From: a virus
Virus record (IMG/VR): IMGVR_UViG_3300025655_000311
Span: 1 to 22,906 of that record
Length of the DNA: 22,906 nt
Direction: 5' to 3' (one strand)
Of the stretch, positions 2 through 22,738 are shown piece by piece (the first letter of the stretch is position 1; each line of letters starts with the position of its first letter). The position numbers and the translations under genes are program-made. Below the pieces are notes generated by a model. That model was not told the DNA's origin and ran no database searches. It saw only the letters and a program-made list of their open reading frames with translations.

Positions 2-889
2 ATCGAATCACCAGTTGAAAGCATTAGACAGATTCAATCTGTTTTAGAATACGTTATTAAAAATGATAAGCCTTTACTTATTATTGCAGATATGGAACCA
101 GCAGTAGCTGCTACATTAGCAATGAACAAAACAAAAGGTAACATAAAAGTAAATGTAATCAACGCTCCAACGTTTGGTATTAATAAAAGAGAAATATTAG
201 ATGATCTTTCTTTACTTACTGGAGCAACTGTTATAAATGAAGACTTAGGTGATGATATGGATTTAATTCAGCCAGAGTTTTTAGGATCATGCGTTAAATC
301 TGTTACATCGGAAAAAGAAACAATTATTCAAGTAGCAGATCCAGTTGATGAAGTTTTAGAACTAATAGACGCTATAAAAGCTGAATTATCAGAAACAAAA
401 ATACCTGGTATAATTATTAGATTAGAAAAAAGACTAGCTAGATTATCAGCTAAAATTGCTGTAGTAAAGGTTGGTGCTAATTCTGATATAGAATTAAAAG
501 AAAAAACAGATCGAGTAGAAGATGCAATTTGTGCTACTAAAGCTGCGATTAAAGAGGGTATTGTTCCAGGAGGTGGAATTGCTCTGTTAAATGCTTCTCA
601 AAATATAAAAGCTAAGTCAATAGGTGAACAAGTGCTACTAGATGCTATTCTAGCGCCTTTTAAGACCATTTTAGATAATGCTGGTATATTGGAGTATGAT
701 TTGCCTAAAACTAAAGGTAAAGGTCTTAATGTGGTTACAGGTAATATGGTAAATATGATTAAGTCAGGTATTATAGATCCTTTATTAGTTACAAAAAGTG
801 CACTTCGTAACGCAGCTTCTGTAGCTACAACTATACTATCAACAGATTGTGTAATCAATAATTTAAGAATTGATGAAGGCAATAGGTAA
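2..889 (+). CDS. groEL: Phage chaperonin GroEL (Cpn60), 5'-truncated by window edge
   Basis: This is the large chaperonin subunit, which folds proteins in an ATP-driven double-ring cage closed by GroES. The reading frame is already open at base 2, so the true start lies upstream; the ATG at 92 is internal. What remains is roughly the second half: the apical domain (PLLIIADMEP, INAPTFGINKRE, LTGATVI), the intermediate domain and the second equatorial segment. RVEDAICATK carries the Asp that aligns with the catalytic D398 of E. coli GroEL. VPGGGIAL is the nucleotide-contact Gly motif, and GIIDP and TKSALRNAASVA are equatorial signatures. The usual Gly-Met-rich C-terminal tail is absent; the protein stops soon after STDCVINNL. 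The final 17 bases overlap groES. The gene order, groEL before groES, is the reverse of the usual bacterial groES-groEL operon, which with the phage genes around it argues for a viral gene. The family call is very secure. Confidence 0.95.
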   Translation: MESPVESIRQIQSVLEYVIKNDKPLLIIADMEPAVAATLAMNKTKGNIKVNVINAPTFGINKREILDDLSLLTGATVINEDLGDDMDLIQPEFLGSCVKSVTSEKETIIQVADPVDEVLELIDAIKAELSETKIPGIIIRLEKRLARLSAKIAVVKVGANSDIELKEKTDRVEDAICATKAAIKEGIVPGGGIALLNASQNIKAKSIGEQVLLDAILAPFKTILDNAGILEYDLPKTKGKGLNVVTGNMVNMIKSGIIDPLLVTKSALRNAASVATTILSTDCVINNLRIDEGNR

Positions 890-1133
890 TAATATAATCA
901 TTATACCTGAAAAAATTGCAGGTGATGAAACTAAAGGCGGTTTGCTTTTAGTTAAAAAAGATAGAGAAGATATACGATATACTAAAGCTACTATAGCTAA
1001 TGTTAGTGAAGATATAAAAGTAGTTAATATTGGTGACCAAATATACTACGATAGACACGCTGGTCACGTAATAGAAATTGATAAAGAACTTTATACAATT
1101 ATTAAAGTTCAAGATATAGTAGTTGTTTTGTGA
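873..1133 (+). CDS. groES: Phage co-chaperonin GroES-like (Cpn10), 86 aa
   Basis: This is the small lid of the chaperonin cage, a heptameric beta-barrel that caps GroEL through a mobile loop. I chose the ATG at 873; an in-frame TTG at 870 is possible but less likely. The N-terminal strand (AIGNNIIIIPEK, residues 3-14) matches the family pattern. The mobile loop is around residues 16-33, with the hydrophobic tripeptide LLL after GG at 22-26 (IVL in E. coli GroES). The strand around NIGDQIYYD (52-60) matches the VGD-ivxF element, and the chain ends in a KVQDIVVVL strand. At 86 aa it is slightly shorter than bacterial GroES (about 95 aa). It overlaps the end of groEL by 17 bases, and its TGA overlaps the GTG of the next gene, so the three genes are probably one transcript with coupled translation. 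Confidence 0.88.
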   Translation: MKAIGNNIIIIPEKIAGDETKGGLLLVKKDREDIRYTKATIANVSEDIKVVNIGDQIYYDRHAGHVIEIDKELYTIIKVQDIVVVL

Positions 1134-3513: not shown

Positions 3514-3831
3514 ATGGCTTTTAAAATGAAAGGTGCTCCTTACTTCGATACCAATACTCCAATATACAATATTGATATGGAGGATGGCGTCCTTGGTAAA
3601 GCTAATAATAACGGTACTATAGTTTTAAACAATAAACTTACAGATCCAAAGCAAATACAAGATGTTATAGAGCATGAAATGGTTCACATAGATCAAATTA
3701 AAAGAGGTGATCTAAATTATGATAATAAAAATGTATATTGGAAAGGTAAAACAATTCCAAGGTCTAGTATAAAAGAAGGCTCAGCTGCTTTAGCCTGGGA
3801 AAAAGAAGCATACAATAAAACAAAAAAATAG
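3514..3831 (+). CDS. Mini zinc-metallopeptidase-like protein (HEMVH motif)
   Basis: A 105-aa protein that starts MAFKMKGAPYFDTN, followed by a conserved-looking DMEDGVLGKANNNGTIVLNN. A helix DVIEHEMVHIDQIKRGD carries the zinc-peptidase motif HExxH at residues 54-58. A possible third ligand is Glu in AWEKEAY (about 96-99). All of this fits a compressed gluzincin-like fold at the lower end of metallopeptidase size. I recall close relatives in marine phages but no experimental function. It could be a virion-borne peptidase acting on the prohead or the cell wall, or an inactive binding protein. No signal peptide is visible. It starts two bases after the previous gene and lies in the same run as the holin. 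No other lytic enzyme appears in the window. Confidence 0.75.
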   Translation: MAFKMKGAPYFDTNTPIYNIDMEDGVLGKANNNGTIVLNNKLTDPKQIQDVIEHEMVHIDQIKRGDLNYDNKNVYWKGKTIPRSSIKEGSAALAWEKEAYNKTKK

Positions 3832-5152: not shown

Positions 5153-5379
5153 TGAGTAAAGTCATTAGAAAAATCAGCATAGGTTCTGATTATAAAAATG
5201 ACGCTATGCATTATGCTGTATCTCAGCAAGTATATGGAGGACATACTATTTCAGCTATTATCTTTGAAGAGTCTGAACAATCGTATAACATATACATAAA
5301 AAAAGACAATGAAGTTTTGCCTTGGAAAAAGTTTAATAGAAACATGGCAATATCAGTTGAATACGATTTAGAGTATTAA
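5152..5379 (+). CDS. Conserved hypothetical phage protein (75 aa)
   Basis: A 75-aa protein starting at a GTG that overlaps the previous stop; no ATG lies close to the start. It reads IRKISIGSDYKNDAMHYAVSQ near the N-terminus, then strands GGHTISAIIFEESEQSYNIYIKKDNEVLPWKKFNRNMAISVEYDLEY. The predominantly beta pattern and the 'KISIG.DYK..MHY..GQ' opening resemble a family I recall from Bacteroidota phages without a known function. Its stop overlaps the next ATG (TAATG), so three genes from 4886 to 5984 are translationally linked. A role in morphogenesis is possible from the position before the terminase but is unsupported. Confidence 0.75.
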   Translation: MSKVIRKISIGSDYKNDAMHYAVSQQVYGGHTISAIIFEESEQSYNIYIKKDNEVLPWKKFNRNMAISVEYDLEY

Positions 5380-5984
5380 TGAATAGTGTTTACGAGTTTA
5401 TAATTAAACCTGTAGGAAATAGATATAGCAATGAATTAACTGTTGGTGATAAAAAGCTAATAGTTAATTCTAGCATATCTAATCATAAATTTGTCAATAG
5501 AGAAGCAGAAATAGTTGCTTTGCCTTTAGCTTTTAAAACAAAATTAAAAGTAGGTGACAGAGTAATTGTTCATCACAACTTATTTAGAAGATACTATAAC
5601 ATGAAAGGAAAGTCTGTTAATAGTACTAAATATTTTAAAGATGATTTATACTTTGCTTCTTTAAATCAAATATATATGAAAAAAACAAAAGACTCATGGG
5701 AAACTTTAAACGAGTATTGTTTTATAAAGCCTATAGTCAATAAGAGTTCATCTAGTTTAAAAAAACTAAAACAATGTGTTGGTATAGTAAAATACGGAAA
5801 CAGCACGTTAGAAGCTCTTAAAATACATAAAGAAGATTTAGTTGTTTTTAAGAAAAATAGAGAGTTTGAATTCTTAATAAATAATGAAGTTGTTTATTGT
5901 ATGGAATCAAATGATATTTTATTAAAAGATGAACGTAAAGGAAACGAAACTGAATATAATCCAAGCTGGGCAAAAAGCAGTTGA
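5379..5984 (+). CDS. Putative tandem double GroES-like protein (201 aa)
   Basis: The protein reads as two GroES-type barrels in a row. The first (about residues 4-101) begins YEFIIKPVGNRY, has REAEIVALPL as the GEV-ag strand, KVGDRVIVHH (57-66) as the VGD-ivF strand, and ends DDLYFASLNQIYMKK. The second (about 113-183) repeats the order: YCFIKPIV, VGIVKYG (134-140), HKEDLVVF (150-157), then EFLINNEVVYCMESNDILLK, very like the GroES ending 'D-eeylim-e-DILA'. No obvious hydrophobic mobile-loop tripeptide is visible. The tail NETEYNPSWAKSS looks conserved in relatives I recall from marine phages. It may be a co-chaperonin, a chaperonin-ring adaptor, or a virion protein using the same fold. The pattern match is suggestive, not proof. 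The last 56 bases overlap the small terminase gene in another frame. Confidence 0.72.
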   Translation: MNSVYEFIIKPVGNRYSNELTVGDKKLIVNSSISNHKFVNREAEIVALPLAFKTKLKVGDRVIVHHNLFRRYYNMKGKSVNSTKYFKDDLYFASLNQIYMKKTKDSWETLNEYCFIKPIVNKSSSSLKKLKQCVGIVKYGNSTLEALKIHKEDLVVFKKNREFEFLINNEVVYCMESNDILLKDERKGNETEYNPSWAKSS

Positions 5985-6207
5985 GGAATTAATAAAGGTA
6001 GCAAAAGAAAAGATCGTTGACTCAGAAGATGATATTTCAGCTGACAGACTTAAAAACGCTGCCGCTACTAAAAAGCTAGCTATATTTGATGCTTTTGAAA
6101 TACTTAGTAGAATAGAAGCTGAAGAAGCTGCTTTAAATGGAACTACAGTTGAAGAAGCTGTAGTTAAAAAATCTTTTGCTGGCTTTGCAGAAGGAAGATC
6201 TAAGTAA
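5929..6207 (+). CDS. terS: Putative terminase small subunit (TerS)
   Basis: A 92-aa protein, probably the small terminase, which recognises phage DNA and regulates the large subunit. It is helical: NIIQAGQKAVEELIKVAKEKIV, then DDISADRLKNAAATKKLAIFDAFEILSRIEAEEAAL, then a short C-terminal part KKSFAGFAEGRSK. The 'SADRLKNAAATKKLAIFDAFEIL' helix pair is one I recall directly upstream of terL in marine Bacteroidota phages. The immediate link to terL (TAATG overlap at 6205-6209) supports the call. The first 56 bases overlap the previous gene in a different frame. There is no clear classical helix-turn-helix, so the DNA-binding mode is not evident. Confidence 0.75.
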   Translation: MNVKETKLNIIQAGQKAVEELIKVAKEKIVDSEDDISADRLKNAAATKKLAIFDAFEILSRIEAEEAALNGTTVEEAVVKKSFAGFAEGRSK

Positions 6208-8426
6208 TGTATAAACAAAATTTATATAGCGTAGTTGAAGACCATATAAAGCCAAAAGTTTTAAATAGACTTAATAGGCTTAAAAAATGGGAGTATGGTT
6301 ATAATAAAGACTACGATATAGTAGTTATAAGTAAAACTGGTCAAATAGGTGAAATCTATGAGATACAGAATTTAAAAATAGCATTACCATTAGCAGAAAA
6401 AGTATACAAAAGATCTAACAAAGAAAAAGATCAATACTGGGAACAATTTAAATATCCTGTTGAACTTAAAAAAATTCAAAGTGTATTTGATTGGAATGAT
6501 TATCCAGATGAGTTTAAAGAAAAATGGTATGAGTATATTAACGAAGAGTTTATTAAACGTGAAGAAGGTTTTTGGTATTACAACAAAGGCGTTCCTACTT
6601 ATATTACTGGTACTCATTACATGTACTTGCAGTGGACTAAAATTGACGTTGGCAAACCAGACTTTAGAGAATCAAATAGATTATTCTATATATTCTGGGA
6701 AGCTTGCAAAGCAGATTCAAGATGCTACGGATTGTGCTACCTTAAGAACAGACGTTCGGGTTTCTCTTTTATGGCTTCGTCAGAAACGGTTAACCAAGCA
6801 ACAATATCAAGAGACGCTAGATTTGGTATATTATCTAAATCAGGAGCTGATGCGAAGAAAATGTTTACCGATAAAGTTGTACCCATATCAATCAACTATC
6901 CGTTCTTTTTCAAGCCAATACAGGATGGGATGGAACGTCCAAAAACAGAATTATCATATAAAGTACCGTCGAAAAGACTTACAAGAAACTCGATTAAGGA
7001 AACCAGTGAGGAACTCCAGGACGGTCTCGACACCACGATCGACTGGAAGAACACAGGCGACAACTCGTATGACGGAGAGAAACTTAAGCTCCTCGTCCAC
7101 GATGAATCGGGTAAGTGGGAAAGACCAGATAATATATTAAACAACTGGAGGGTAACTAAAACAACATTACGACTAGGTAGAAGAATAGTAGGTAAATGTT
7201 TAATGGGATCAACATCTAATGCTTTAGAAAAAGGTGGAGGGAATTTTAAAAAGCTATACGAATCATCGGACGTTACGCAAAGAAACCGAAATGGACAGAC
7301 TAGCTCAGGACTATATAGTTTGTTCATACCTATGGAATGGAACTACGAAGGATACATTGATACTTATGGCTTACCTGTCTTCGACACTCCAAAAAAACCT
7401 ATAAAAGGTATTGATGGTGAATATATTGATATAGGTGTTATATCTCATTGGGAAAACGAAGTAGATGGTTTAAAAGACGATCAAGACGGTTTAAACGAAT
7501 ACTATAGACAGTTTCCAAGAACAGAAAAACACGCTTTTAGAGATGAAGCTAAAGAATCTTTATTTAATTTAACTAAAATATACGAACAAGTTGATTATAA
7601 TGAAGATTTACGAAATACTAATGTGGTTACACAGGGTAATTTTCAATGGGAAGGTGGAATTAAAGATACTAGGGTATTGTTTATTCCAAACAAAAATGGC
7701 AGATTTTTAGTCAGTTGGGTGCCTTCAGCTAATTTACAAAATAGATATTATTTAAAAAATGGTTCTAAATATCCTGGCAATGAGCACTGTGGTGCTTTTG
7801 GATGTGATAGTTATGATATATCCGGTACTGTAGATGGTAGAGGTTCTAAAGGAGCTTTACACGGTTTAACTAAGTTTTCAATGGAAGACGTACCGCCTAA
7901 TTTATTTTTTTTAGAATATATATCAAGACCACAAACAGCTGAAATATTTTTTGAAGACGTTTTAATGGCATTAGTTTTTTATGGCATGCCTATATTAGCT
8001 GAAAATAACAAACCTAGATTATTATATTATTTAAAAAGAAGAGGTTACAGGGGTTATTCAATGAATAGACCAGATAAGGTTTTACATAAATTATCTGTAA
8101 CAGAAAGAGAAATAGGTGGAATACCTAACTCAAGCGAAGATATAAAGCAAGCTCACGCGGCTGCTATTGAAGATTATATAGAAAATTATGTTGGTTTACA
8201 AGAAGATGGAACTTATGGAAATGTATATTTTCAAAGAACACTAGAAGATTGGGCTAAATTTAATATAAATAATAGAACAAAACACGATGCATCTATTAGC
8301 TCTGGTTTAGCTATGATGGCATGTAACAAAAATAGATATACACCTGTGGCAAAAAGAACAGTTTCTAAAGTGTCTTTAGGTTTTAGAAAATACAACAACT
8401 CAGGAGCAAATTCAAAAATAATATAA
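6207..8426 (+). CDS. terL: Terminase large subunit (TerL)
   Basis: This is the packaging motor: an N-terminal ATPase that pumps DNA through the portal and a C-terminal RNase H-like nuclease that cuts it. At 739 aa it is long for TerL but within the range of large podovirus and crAss-like terminases. A variant Walker A lies at residues 179-187 (LKNRRSGFS). Walker B, LLVHDE, is at 295-300 with the catalytic Glu at 300. The nuclease domain starts around AFGCDSYD (first acidic Asp at about 534) and includes NNKPRLLYYLKRRGY and, near the end, KHDASISSGLAMMA, whose Asp is a good candidate for the last metal ligand. Codons 261-304 show unusually high GC at the third position (see the entry at 6987). 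Translation is coupled to TerS by a TAATG overlap. Confidence 0.93.
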   Translation: MYKQNLYSVVEDHIKPKVLNRLNRLKKWEYGYNKDYDIVVISKTGQIGEIYEIQNLKIALPLAEKVYKRSNKEKDQYWEQFKYPVELKKIQSVFDWNDYPDEFKEKWYEYINEEFIKREEGFWYYNKGVPTYITGTHYMYLQWTKIDVGKPDFRESNRLFYIFWEACKADSRCYGLCYLKNRRSGFSFMASSETVNQATISRDARFGILSKSGADAKKMFTDKVVPISINYPFFFKPIQDGMERPKTELSYKVPSKRLTRNSIKETSEELQDGLDTTIDWKNTGDNSYDGEKLKLLVHDESGKWERPDNILNNWRVTKTTLRLGRRIVGKCLMGSTSNALEKGGGNFKKLYESSDVTQRNRNGQTSSGLYSLFIPMEWNYEGYIDTYGLPVFDTPKKPIKGIDGEYIDIGVISHWENEVDGLKDDQDGLNEYYRQFPRTEKHAFRDEAKESLFNLTKIYEQVDYNEDLRNTNVVTQGNFQWEGGIKDTRVLFIPNKNGRFLVSWVPSANLQNRYYLKNGSKYPGNEHCGAFGCDSYDISGTVDGRGSKGALHGLTKFSMEDVPPNLFFLEYISRPQTAEIFFEDVLMALVFYGMPILAENNKPRLLYYLKRRGYRGYSMNRPDKVLHKLSVTEREIGGIPNSSEDIKQAHAAAIEDYIENYVGLQEDGTYGNVYFQRTLEDWAKFNINNRTKHDASISSGLAMMACNKNRYTPVAKRTVSKVSLGFRKYNNSGANSKII
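6987..7118 (+). other. GC3-rich codon island inside terL (Walker B region)
   Basis: Of 44 consecutive codons, 31 end in G or C (for example ctc, gac, acc, atc, aag, gtc, cac), while codons on either side end mostly in A or T. Overall GC of 7021-7080 is 33 of 60. The protein remains an intact terminase through this stretch, which includes the Walker B motif. This could be a recombined patch from a GC-richer relative, an assembly chimera, or a nucleotide-level constraint. Confidence 0.7.
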
Positions 8427-12090: not shown

Positions 12091-13515
12091 ATGGGAACAT
12101 TAACCCCTACGTTTGGCTCGATTATACCATCGCAGTCACAACAATTACTACAAACGAACTATTTACAGTTCAATAATGGCACATCTGACTTTGCTCAGCA
12201 GTATTTACCTGAGATCTACGAACAAGAGGTAGAGCGTTATGGAAACAGAACTTTATCTGGATTCTTACGTATGGTTGGAGCTGAAATGCCAATGACTTCG
12301 GATCAAGTTATTTGGTCAGAGCAAAACAGATTACACGTTGCTTATAACGGATGTACCAATGATGATGCTAACAATATTGGAATTCCAGTTGGAGCTGGTG
12401 TTGTAAACGTTATTTCTCCCGGCCAAACTATCGTTCTTATGGATGGTGATGGCGTTGAATTAAAAGCTGTAGTTACATCTTCAAACCCAACAACTGGTGT
12501 TTTAGTTGTAGCTCCTTACACCGCTGCTAATACAGCTGCACTTGCCGCTACTGGAATCAAGATTTTTGTATACGGTTCTGAATTTAACAAAGGATCTCAA
12601 ACTACTAACTGGGATGGATCTGCTGGAGCAATAACAGGAACTACAAACATTAGTATTGACCCTACATTTACTCAGTTTAGTAATTCACCAATTATTATTC
12701 GTAGCAACTATACTATAAATGGCTCTGACATGTCTCAGATCGGATGGGTTGAAGTTGCAACTGAAGACGGAACTTCTGGATATTTGTGGTATTTAAAAGC
12801 TGAATCTGAAACTCGTTTACGTTTTGAAGACTACTTAGAAATGAGTGTAGTTGAAGGAGAACTTGCTGCTGCAGGATCTGGAGCTTTAGCTGGAGGATTT
12901 AAAGGTACGCAAGGTTTATTTGCTGCTATCGAAGCTAGAGGTAACGTTGAAACAGCATTTAGTGGAGCTAACTTAACTGACTTTGATAACATCTTAAAGA
13001 ATTTAGATACTCAAGGAGCAATTGAAGAGAACATGCTTTTCTTAGATCGTACGACTTCATTAGAAATTGACGACATGTTAGCTGATGTATCTGCTGGAGC
13101 TCAAGGAGGTACTGCTTATGGATTATTTGAAAACTCTGAAGAAATGGCATTAAACCTAGGTTTTAGCGGTTTCCGTAGAGGATCTTATGATTTCTATAAG
13201 ACTGACTGGAAATATCTAAATGATGCGTCTACTCGTGGAGCAACAACTGGAATATCTTCTATTGAAGGAGTATTAGTACCGGCTGGAACTTCTACAGTTT
13301 ACGATCAAATTTTAGGAACTAATATTCGTCGTCCATTCTTACACGTACGTTATAGAGCTTCTCAAACTGAAGATCGTCGTATGAAGTCTTGGTTGACTGG
13401 ATCTGCTGGTGGTGCTTTCACTTCTAGTTTAGATGCAATGGATATTAACTTCTTATCTGAAAGATGTTTGGTAGTGCAAGCTGCTAACAACTTTGTATTG
13501 TTCAAAGGAGCATAA
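12091..13515 (+). CDS. Major capsid protein
   Basis: A 474-aa protein at the position of the major head protein, after portal and scaffold. Its composition is typical of a HK97-fold capsid subunit: rich in Gly, Ala, Ser and Thr, with a long strand-rich middle. An N-terminal part (NGTSDFAQQYLPEIYEQEVERYGNRTLSGFLRMV) precedes DQVIWSEQNRLHV. Residues about 95-180 (GQTIVLMDGDGVELKAVV ... GIKIFVYGSEFNKGSQ) look like a beta insertion. WYLKAESETRLRFEDYLEMSVVEGELA could be the long spine helix region, and ALDAMDINFLSERCLVVQAANNFVLF-type text closes it. Codon use differs from its neighbours: 13 of 19 arginine codons are CGT and the rest AGA, a sign of selection for high expression. A strong terminator follows. 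Confidence 0.88.
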   Translation: MGTLTPTFGSIIPSQSQQLLQTNYLQFNNGTSDFAQQYLPEIYEQEVERYGNRTLSGFLRMVGAEMPMTSDQVIWSEQNRLHVAYNGCTNDDANNIGIPVGAGVVNVISPGQTIVLMDGDGVELKAVVTSSNPTTGVLVVAPYTAANTAALAATGIKIFVYGSEFNKGSQTTNWDGSAGAITGTTNISIDPTFTQFSNSPIIIRSNYTINGSDMSQIGWVEVATEDGTSGYLWYLKAESETRLRFEDYLEMSVVEGELAAAGSGALAGGFKGTQGLFAAIEARGNVETAFSGANLTDFDNILKNLDTQGAIEENMLFLDRTTSLEIDDMLADVSAGAQGGTAYGLFENSEEMALNLGFSGFRRGSYDFYKTDWKYLNDASTRGATTGISSIEGVLVPAGTSTVYDQILGTNIRRPFLHVRYRASQTEDRRMKSWLTGSAGGAFTSSLDAMDINFLSERCLVVQAANNFVLFKGA

Positions 13516-22282: not shown

Positions 22283-22738
22283 ATGGAATTAACTAATAAA
22301 AAAAAAGCGGAAATAGCTAATAAGCTTAACTTTAGACAAAATTTATCTAAAATAGAAGACGCAATATGCAAACATCCATCTTCTATAACTGGAGACGATT
22401 TTGAAGCAAAGAATCCTACAAAAAGTACATTTGTTGGTGGGTGTTACATAAGAGAAATATTCATGCCTGCCGATCAAATAATAACAACTAAAATACACAA
22501 AAAAGATCATCCTTTTTTCGTGTTAAGTGGTAAAATAATAGTTATTTCTGAAAAAGGTAAACAAGAGATAACAGGTCCTTATCATGGAATAACTAGAGCT
22601 GGTACAAAAAGATTAATTAGCGTTATTGAAGATTGCGTTTTTATAACAGTTCATGCTACAAATAAATTAACGATAGAAGAGGTAACTAAAGAAGTAATAG
22701 CAGAGGATTTTGATGATCCGTTGGTTGCTTTAAAATAA
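22283..22738 (+). CDS. Small cupin-like phage protein (151 aa)
   Basis: A 151-aa protein. The N-terminal third is helical and basic (NKKKAEIANKLNFRQNLSKIEDAICKHP). The rest has a jelly-roll pattern: GGCYIREIFMPADQIITTKIHKKDHPFFVLSGKIIVISEKGKQEITGPYHGITRAGTKRLISVIEDCVFITVHATNK. This matches the two cupin motifs in spacing: IHKKDHPFFVLSGKIIV for motif 1, with His 73 and His 77 as likely metal ligands, and EDCVFITVHA for motif 2. A Cys/Asp-rich acid C-terminus follows. I recall such cupins beside tail genes in marine phages, without function. It could be a virion-associated sugar- or metal-binding protein. Start is ATG after attaaattaaattaa. Confidence 0.78.
   Translation: MELTNKKKAEIANKLNFRQNLSKIEDAICKHPSSITGDDFEAKNPTKSTFVGGCYIREIFMPADQIITTKIHKKDHPFFVLSGKIIVISEKGKQEITGPYHGITRAGTKRLISVIEDCVFITVHATNKLTIEEVTKEVIAEDFDDPLVALK

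Follow-up and report, generated by a model that had tools for sequence, protein, structure and literature searches.

The virus record analysed here, a stretch of 22,906 nt (22.9 kb) referred to as the window, opens inside a groEL gene, the 5′ end of which lies off the window, and this gene runs into an overlapping groES. The locus raises the question of whether the phage carries a chaperonin system of its own, and if so with which co-chaperonins and for which client proteins. The window covers part of the genome of an uncultured tailed phage that has relatives among the flavobacterial phages. Its GroEL-GroES pair is of a sort common in marine phages; the part of interest is a second, tandem co-chaperonin, the gene for which (5379–5984) is absent from an earlier note on this DNA. 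On balance, and with fair but limited confidence, the phage is taken to supply a group I chaperonin of its own together with co-chaperonins of two kinds, the function that we infer for the tandem protein being that of a probable second lid.

The groEL frame (2–889, + strand) is open at its 5′ end, encodes approximately residues 224–518 of about 518, and ends with a TAA stop codon at 887–889. It matches Cpn60_TCP1 in Pfam (E 1.8e-26) and phrog_5725, 'chaperonin groEL' (9.3e-63), and it has complete homologues. The small groES (873–1133, + strand; Cpn10, E 1e-9) encodes 86 aa from the ATG at 873, directly preceded by an in-frame TTG at 870, and stops at 1131–1133. The order groEL then groES and the 17-base overlap described in the earlier note are thus confirmed, the shared segment (873–889) being exactly 17 nt long. 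An overlap of this length is present in 94 out of 111 related loci, the remainder having 4, 20, or 1 nt, and purifying selection acts on each of the two genes (dN/dS 0.05–0.16 for groEL and 0.13–0.22 for groES); the overlap is therefore not due to chance. It makes co-expression and translational coupling of the two genes likely.

Since the window carries only the 3′ part of groEL, the full-length Cpn60 assignment is made through its homologues. The earlier note had asked for upstream extension, and the frame proves unbroken there: in a contig with 99.9 % identity to the window over 10.9 kb (L002) it is free of stop codons to about residue 44, and a further contig (L003) has a complete GroEL of 518 aa, which is 97–98 % identical at the protein level to that of the window. 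Most related contigs with the whole gene encode a GroEL of 513–520 aa. The L003 protein and other homologues can be aligned with E. coli GroEL, and with chaperonins in the PDB, over 518 positions, with the equatorial, intermediate, and apical segments all present. One viral record (G003) has, besides an intact GroEL, a fragmented second one towards the opposite end; this may reflect the assembly or be a copy in decay.

Alignment to E. coli GroEL places the RVEDA motif (512–526, + strand), with the equivalent of D398 for ATP hydrolysis, and the GGG motif (569–577, + strand; G414–G416 in E. coli) within the window, and the protein ends in NNLRIDEGNR. The two motifs and the lack of a Gly-Met tail are as first observed. 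Equivalents of K51, D52, D87, TTT, D398, GGG, and D495, which serve ATP binding or hydrolysis, are kept in 12 GroEL homologues. In the small GroES, the Cpn10 domain has a GG-hydrophobic mobile loop, TKGGLLL (930–950, + strand), in which G22, G23, and L24 are invariant in 39 sequences. Together, the retained ATPase residues and this loop make a GroES-capped folding cycle likely, and the presence of a GroES-type co-chaperonin encoded by the overlapping groES is in keeping with a GroEL of group I. The apical groove of GroEL has changed at several positions (Y199 to M, L, or I; Y203 to H in most cases; L234Q; V263A; and V264M). Two segments in or close to the region where the rings touch, around E. 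coli residues 428–435 and 463–470, are shortened; this alone is insufficient to establish a single ring for the marine GroEL, and none is claimed.

Adjoining groES is a gene for a 147-aa protein (1130–1573, + strand; phrog_17028, function unknown), which follows groES in nearly all relatives, frequently with a 4-nt overlap. It is predicted to have a MarR-like winged helix (model pLDDT 84; Foldseek match to MarR, 5e-4), and from this fold and its synteny it may regulate the chaperonin genes.

That these genes are a fragment of a bacterial groESL operon, or were recently captured from a host, rather than belonging to a long-standing phage system, was given next to no weight. Such capture does happen, as the GroELs of Bacteroides phage SJC03 and Vibrio phage phiKT1024 group with relatives of their hosts, and the tree is therefore able to reveal it. 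The GroEL lineage of the window, together with that of contig L166, instead forms one clade (SH-aLRT 99) outside the sampled bacterial GroELs, in a quick tree of 55 bacterial and seven other phage GroELs in which long branches leave the deeper placement unsure; grouping of the lineage with Bacteroidota was rejected (AU p 0.003). Phage terminase, portal, and capsid genes lie downstream, the gene cluster is shared by many viral contigs, and groEL comes first, where a bacterial groESL operon has groES first, bacterial flanks, and a position nested in a bacterial clade. The pair is accordingly not the bacterial groESL that the earlier note had named as the finding that would overturn its reading, and flanks, synteny, and tree together rule out a bacterial or recent host origin. 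Contig L166 itself (8.3 kb; DQLC01000067.1) is from an alphaproteobacterial MAG; it is a phage contig with the identical order of groEL, groES, and the 147-aa gene, and it has therefore probably been binned wrongly, unless it marks a cell under infection.

The second co-chaperonin-like gene (5379–5984, + strand; dN/dS 0.11–0.19) encodes 201 aa, nearly the whole length of which matches phrog_13932, 'co-chaperonin GroES' (6.3e-20). Cpn10 is the most frequent Pfam match in its family (25 out of 42 members, best 1.8e-4). Two tandem Cpn10 domains are indicated, the second by profile and the first by predicted structure only. Domain 2 (5700–5930, + strand) is homologous to bacterial Cpn10 (hhalign probability 95.8, E 3e-9), and the canonical mobile-loop motif is missing from it, a G-hydrophobic tripeptide being found there in 0 out of 130 sequences. 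Domain 1 (5379–5693, + strand) gave no hhalign signal against either Cpn10 or domain 2, and is predicted to be Cpn10-like from the model and fold search. At its mobile-loop position is the tripeptide LIV (5457–5465, + strand), which is hydrophobic in 128 out of 130 sequences, and in distant relatives the loop is GroES-like (TESGLEL in phi18:3, IGGIEF in MW202828, and NGLIL in elemo).

The AlphaFold model of the tandem protein (pLDDT 80.6, pTM 0.78) had two matches below 1e-3 in the PDB by Foldseek, chains R and Q of 7ekq, which are the Cpn20 co-chaperonin subunit and Chaperonin 23 (Cpn23), followed by single-domain GroES. The agreement with Cpn20/Cpn23 is moderate (TM 0.50–0.57; 0.55–0.57 with rmsd 6.8 for Cpn20). 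When the tandem family was compared with the PDB by sequence, Cpn10 was not among the hits; it was recovered by the fold search alone. The profiles of the small and tandem co-chaperonins match each other weakly. As Cpn20 has a GG-hydrophobic mobile loop in both domains and domain 2 lacks the motif here, the protein is named Cpn20-like rather than Cpn20. In the one bacterial genome searched for tandem homologues, the sole find was a frame of ordinary size with a match to domain 2.

Between the tandem gene and the terminase gene is a frame of 92 aa (5929–6207), which from its position could be a small terminase subunit. It overlaps the tandem gene by 56 nt, and this overlap may account in part for the conserved NPSWA tail in which the tandem protein ends. 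Further observations in the window are a 105-aa protein with HEMVH (3514–3831), which has weak metallopeptidase matches (M76 and SprT-like; E about 0.001–0.004), and a 151-aa protein (22283–22738), which is cupin-like by eye, with no Pfam match at E 0.01.

The large terminase subunit (6207–8426, + strand; phrog_6681, 8.6e-170) anchors the packaging cassette, and the tandem gene is just upstream of it in all 151 same-strand pairs counted, with a gap of 200–299 nt in 138. In 67 of the 68 tandem loci having at least 8 kb of upstream sequence, groEL and groES are present as well. Among cultured or complete relatives, which are not independent of one another, GroEL and both co-chaperonins are encoded by phi38:1, elemo, MW202828, and Panino; phi18:3 has the small and tandem forms with no detectable GroEL. 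The two forms therefore co-occur in five such genomes, and in Gundel neither they nor GroEL are detectable. The list of phi18:3 virion proteins annotated from MS/MS does not contain the tandem protein, which is weak evidence that an assembly factor fits better than a part of the virion.

From these data, a two-lid folding system can be proposed. GroEL and the small GroES would form the folding chamber of the phage, and the tandem protein would probably dock on GroEL through the loop of domain 1 while heads are assembled, either as an alternative lid or as part of a mixed one. This second lid may serve the phage GroEL or that of the host; as no phage GroEL is detectable in phi18:3, where the two co-chaperonins are both present, the tandem protein need not act on a phage GroEL. 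The earlier note had tentatively matched the chaperonin to the large capsid and tail proteins encoded downstream, a match that is not supported. A GroEL-type cage holds roughly 60 kDa, and the largest downstream products, of 739–1461 aa, are therefore too large for it. Among the proteins so named, only the likely major capsid protein would fit (474 aa; 12091–13515, + strand; phrog_13704, virion structural protein, 3.1e-97), its capsid role being a probable one, and by analogy with T4 gp23 and gp31 this protein would be the natural client.

Against the two-lid proposal are the lack of detectable Cpn10 sequence similarity in domain 1, the moderate match to Cpn20, and the loss of the loop motif from domain 2. 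Alternatively, the tandem protein would be a head or packaging factor, one that reuses a GroES-like barrel and has no GroEL partner left, beside an ordinary phage GroEL-GroES pair; the missing motif of domain 2 and a domain 1 that is unrecognisable by profile would fit this. The location of the gene, directly before the terminase in the packaging cassette and away from groEL, also suits such a factor. This explanation is thought rather unlikely, as the domain 1 tripeptide has been kept in all but two of the 130 sequences and is GroES-like in distant relatives, the protein co-occurs with the small GroES, and it does not appear in the MS/MS-annotated virion of phi18:3. It is quite improbable that both co-chaperonins serve mainly the host GroEL, as does T4 gp31, with the phage GroEL acting alone or separately. 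Such an arrangement would suit phi18:3, and the chaperonins of phages EL, OBP, and AR9 are reported to work without a co-chaperonin, but in the lineage of the window the overlapping groEL and groES have stayed together, and the divergence of the apical groove (Y199 to M/L/I, L234Q, and V264M) points to a dedicated partner. The two-lid system is therefore preferred. Its most specific form is doubtful: a system like that of chloroplasts would have arisen by convergence in phages of Bacteroidota, with GroES and the tandem protein in mixed lids on phage or host GroEL, for example one small and three tandem subunits to give seven domains, and tuned to head assembly.

Tandem co-chaperonins are not known outside plastids and apicoplasts, and the phage protein beside the terminase would be the first known of this architecture elsewhere. 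It would provide a simple viral system in which to ask why a seven-fold chaperonin takes two-domain lids, and whether the choice of lid specifies clients such as capsid proteins.

Comparison with known systems shows that the pair itself has precedents. Related GroELs were found by tblastn in 212 phage records, with an identity of less than 60 % in all. Flavobacterium elemo phages (NC_055854) and phage MW202828 likewise have groEL first, an overlapping groES, and a tandem-type Cpn10 homologue upstream of the terminase, although their GroELs are 35–39 % identical to the lineage of the window and their chaperonin genes are placed elsewhere relative to the packaging genes. In Maribacter phage Panino, PANI_CDS0109 (38129–38395), annotated as hypothetical and located downstream of groEL, has a profile match to Cpn10. 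The self-contained folding machine of the earlier note therefore stands in so far as GroEL and GroES are phage-encoded, intact, and under selection, but the groEL-first arrangement is not new. At least one GroEL or GroES analogue is present in most of the Southern Ocean viruses in one set (PMC8407431). For virioplankton, group I chaperonins have been described in which GroEL phylogeny is linked to subunit gene order, as that work is summarized by later authors (Marine et al., 2017, as reported in PMC9611531; also cited in PMC7185714). Taken with the pairs in elemo, MW202828, and Panino, this literature shows that the pair in the window adds to a marine viral group already on record.

The reverse order, with groES first, is found in Cellulophaga phages phi38:1 and Calle and in Flavobacterium phage immuto. 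Cellulophaga phages phi38:1 and Calle (Pervagoviridae) and phi18:3 (Pachyviridae) resemble the window in having a small GroES and a tandem-type Cpn10, the latter either immediately before the terminase or separated from it by one gene; phi38:1 differs in that groES precedes groEL with one gene between them, and phi18:3 in that GroEL is not detectable. A 'chaperonin cpn10' is listed among the core proteins of the Pervagoviridae (Bartlau et al.; PMC8776804), so the gene itself was already known as cpn10, and no description of its tandem architecture was found in the literature searched.

Other phage chaperonins are less similar. Those of EL, OBP, and AR9 are also phage-encoded GroEL homologues, but are reported to act as single or separating rings, whereas the lineage of the window encodes GroES alongside. 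In Vibrio phages phiKT1024 and Va1, groEL lies between the genes for the tail sheath and the tail tube, and the annotation shows no groES close by. T4 gp31 and RB49 CocO are phage GroES analogues that serve capsid folding (PMC9598537); unlike the tandem protein they are single-domain and are paired with host GroEL, and gp31 is a weak structural match to the tandem model, at rank 39. The closest likeness is to chloroplast Cpn20/Cpn23, the best structural matches, whose tandem pair of Cpn10 domains is also predicted for the phage protein. In Cpn20, each half can be recognised as Cpn10 by sequence, whereas in the phage protein domain 1 is divergent and domain 2 is the half that retains Cpn10 sequence, without the mobile-loop motif.
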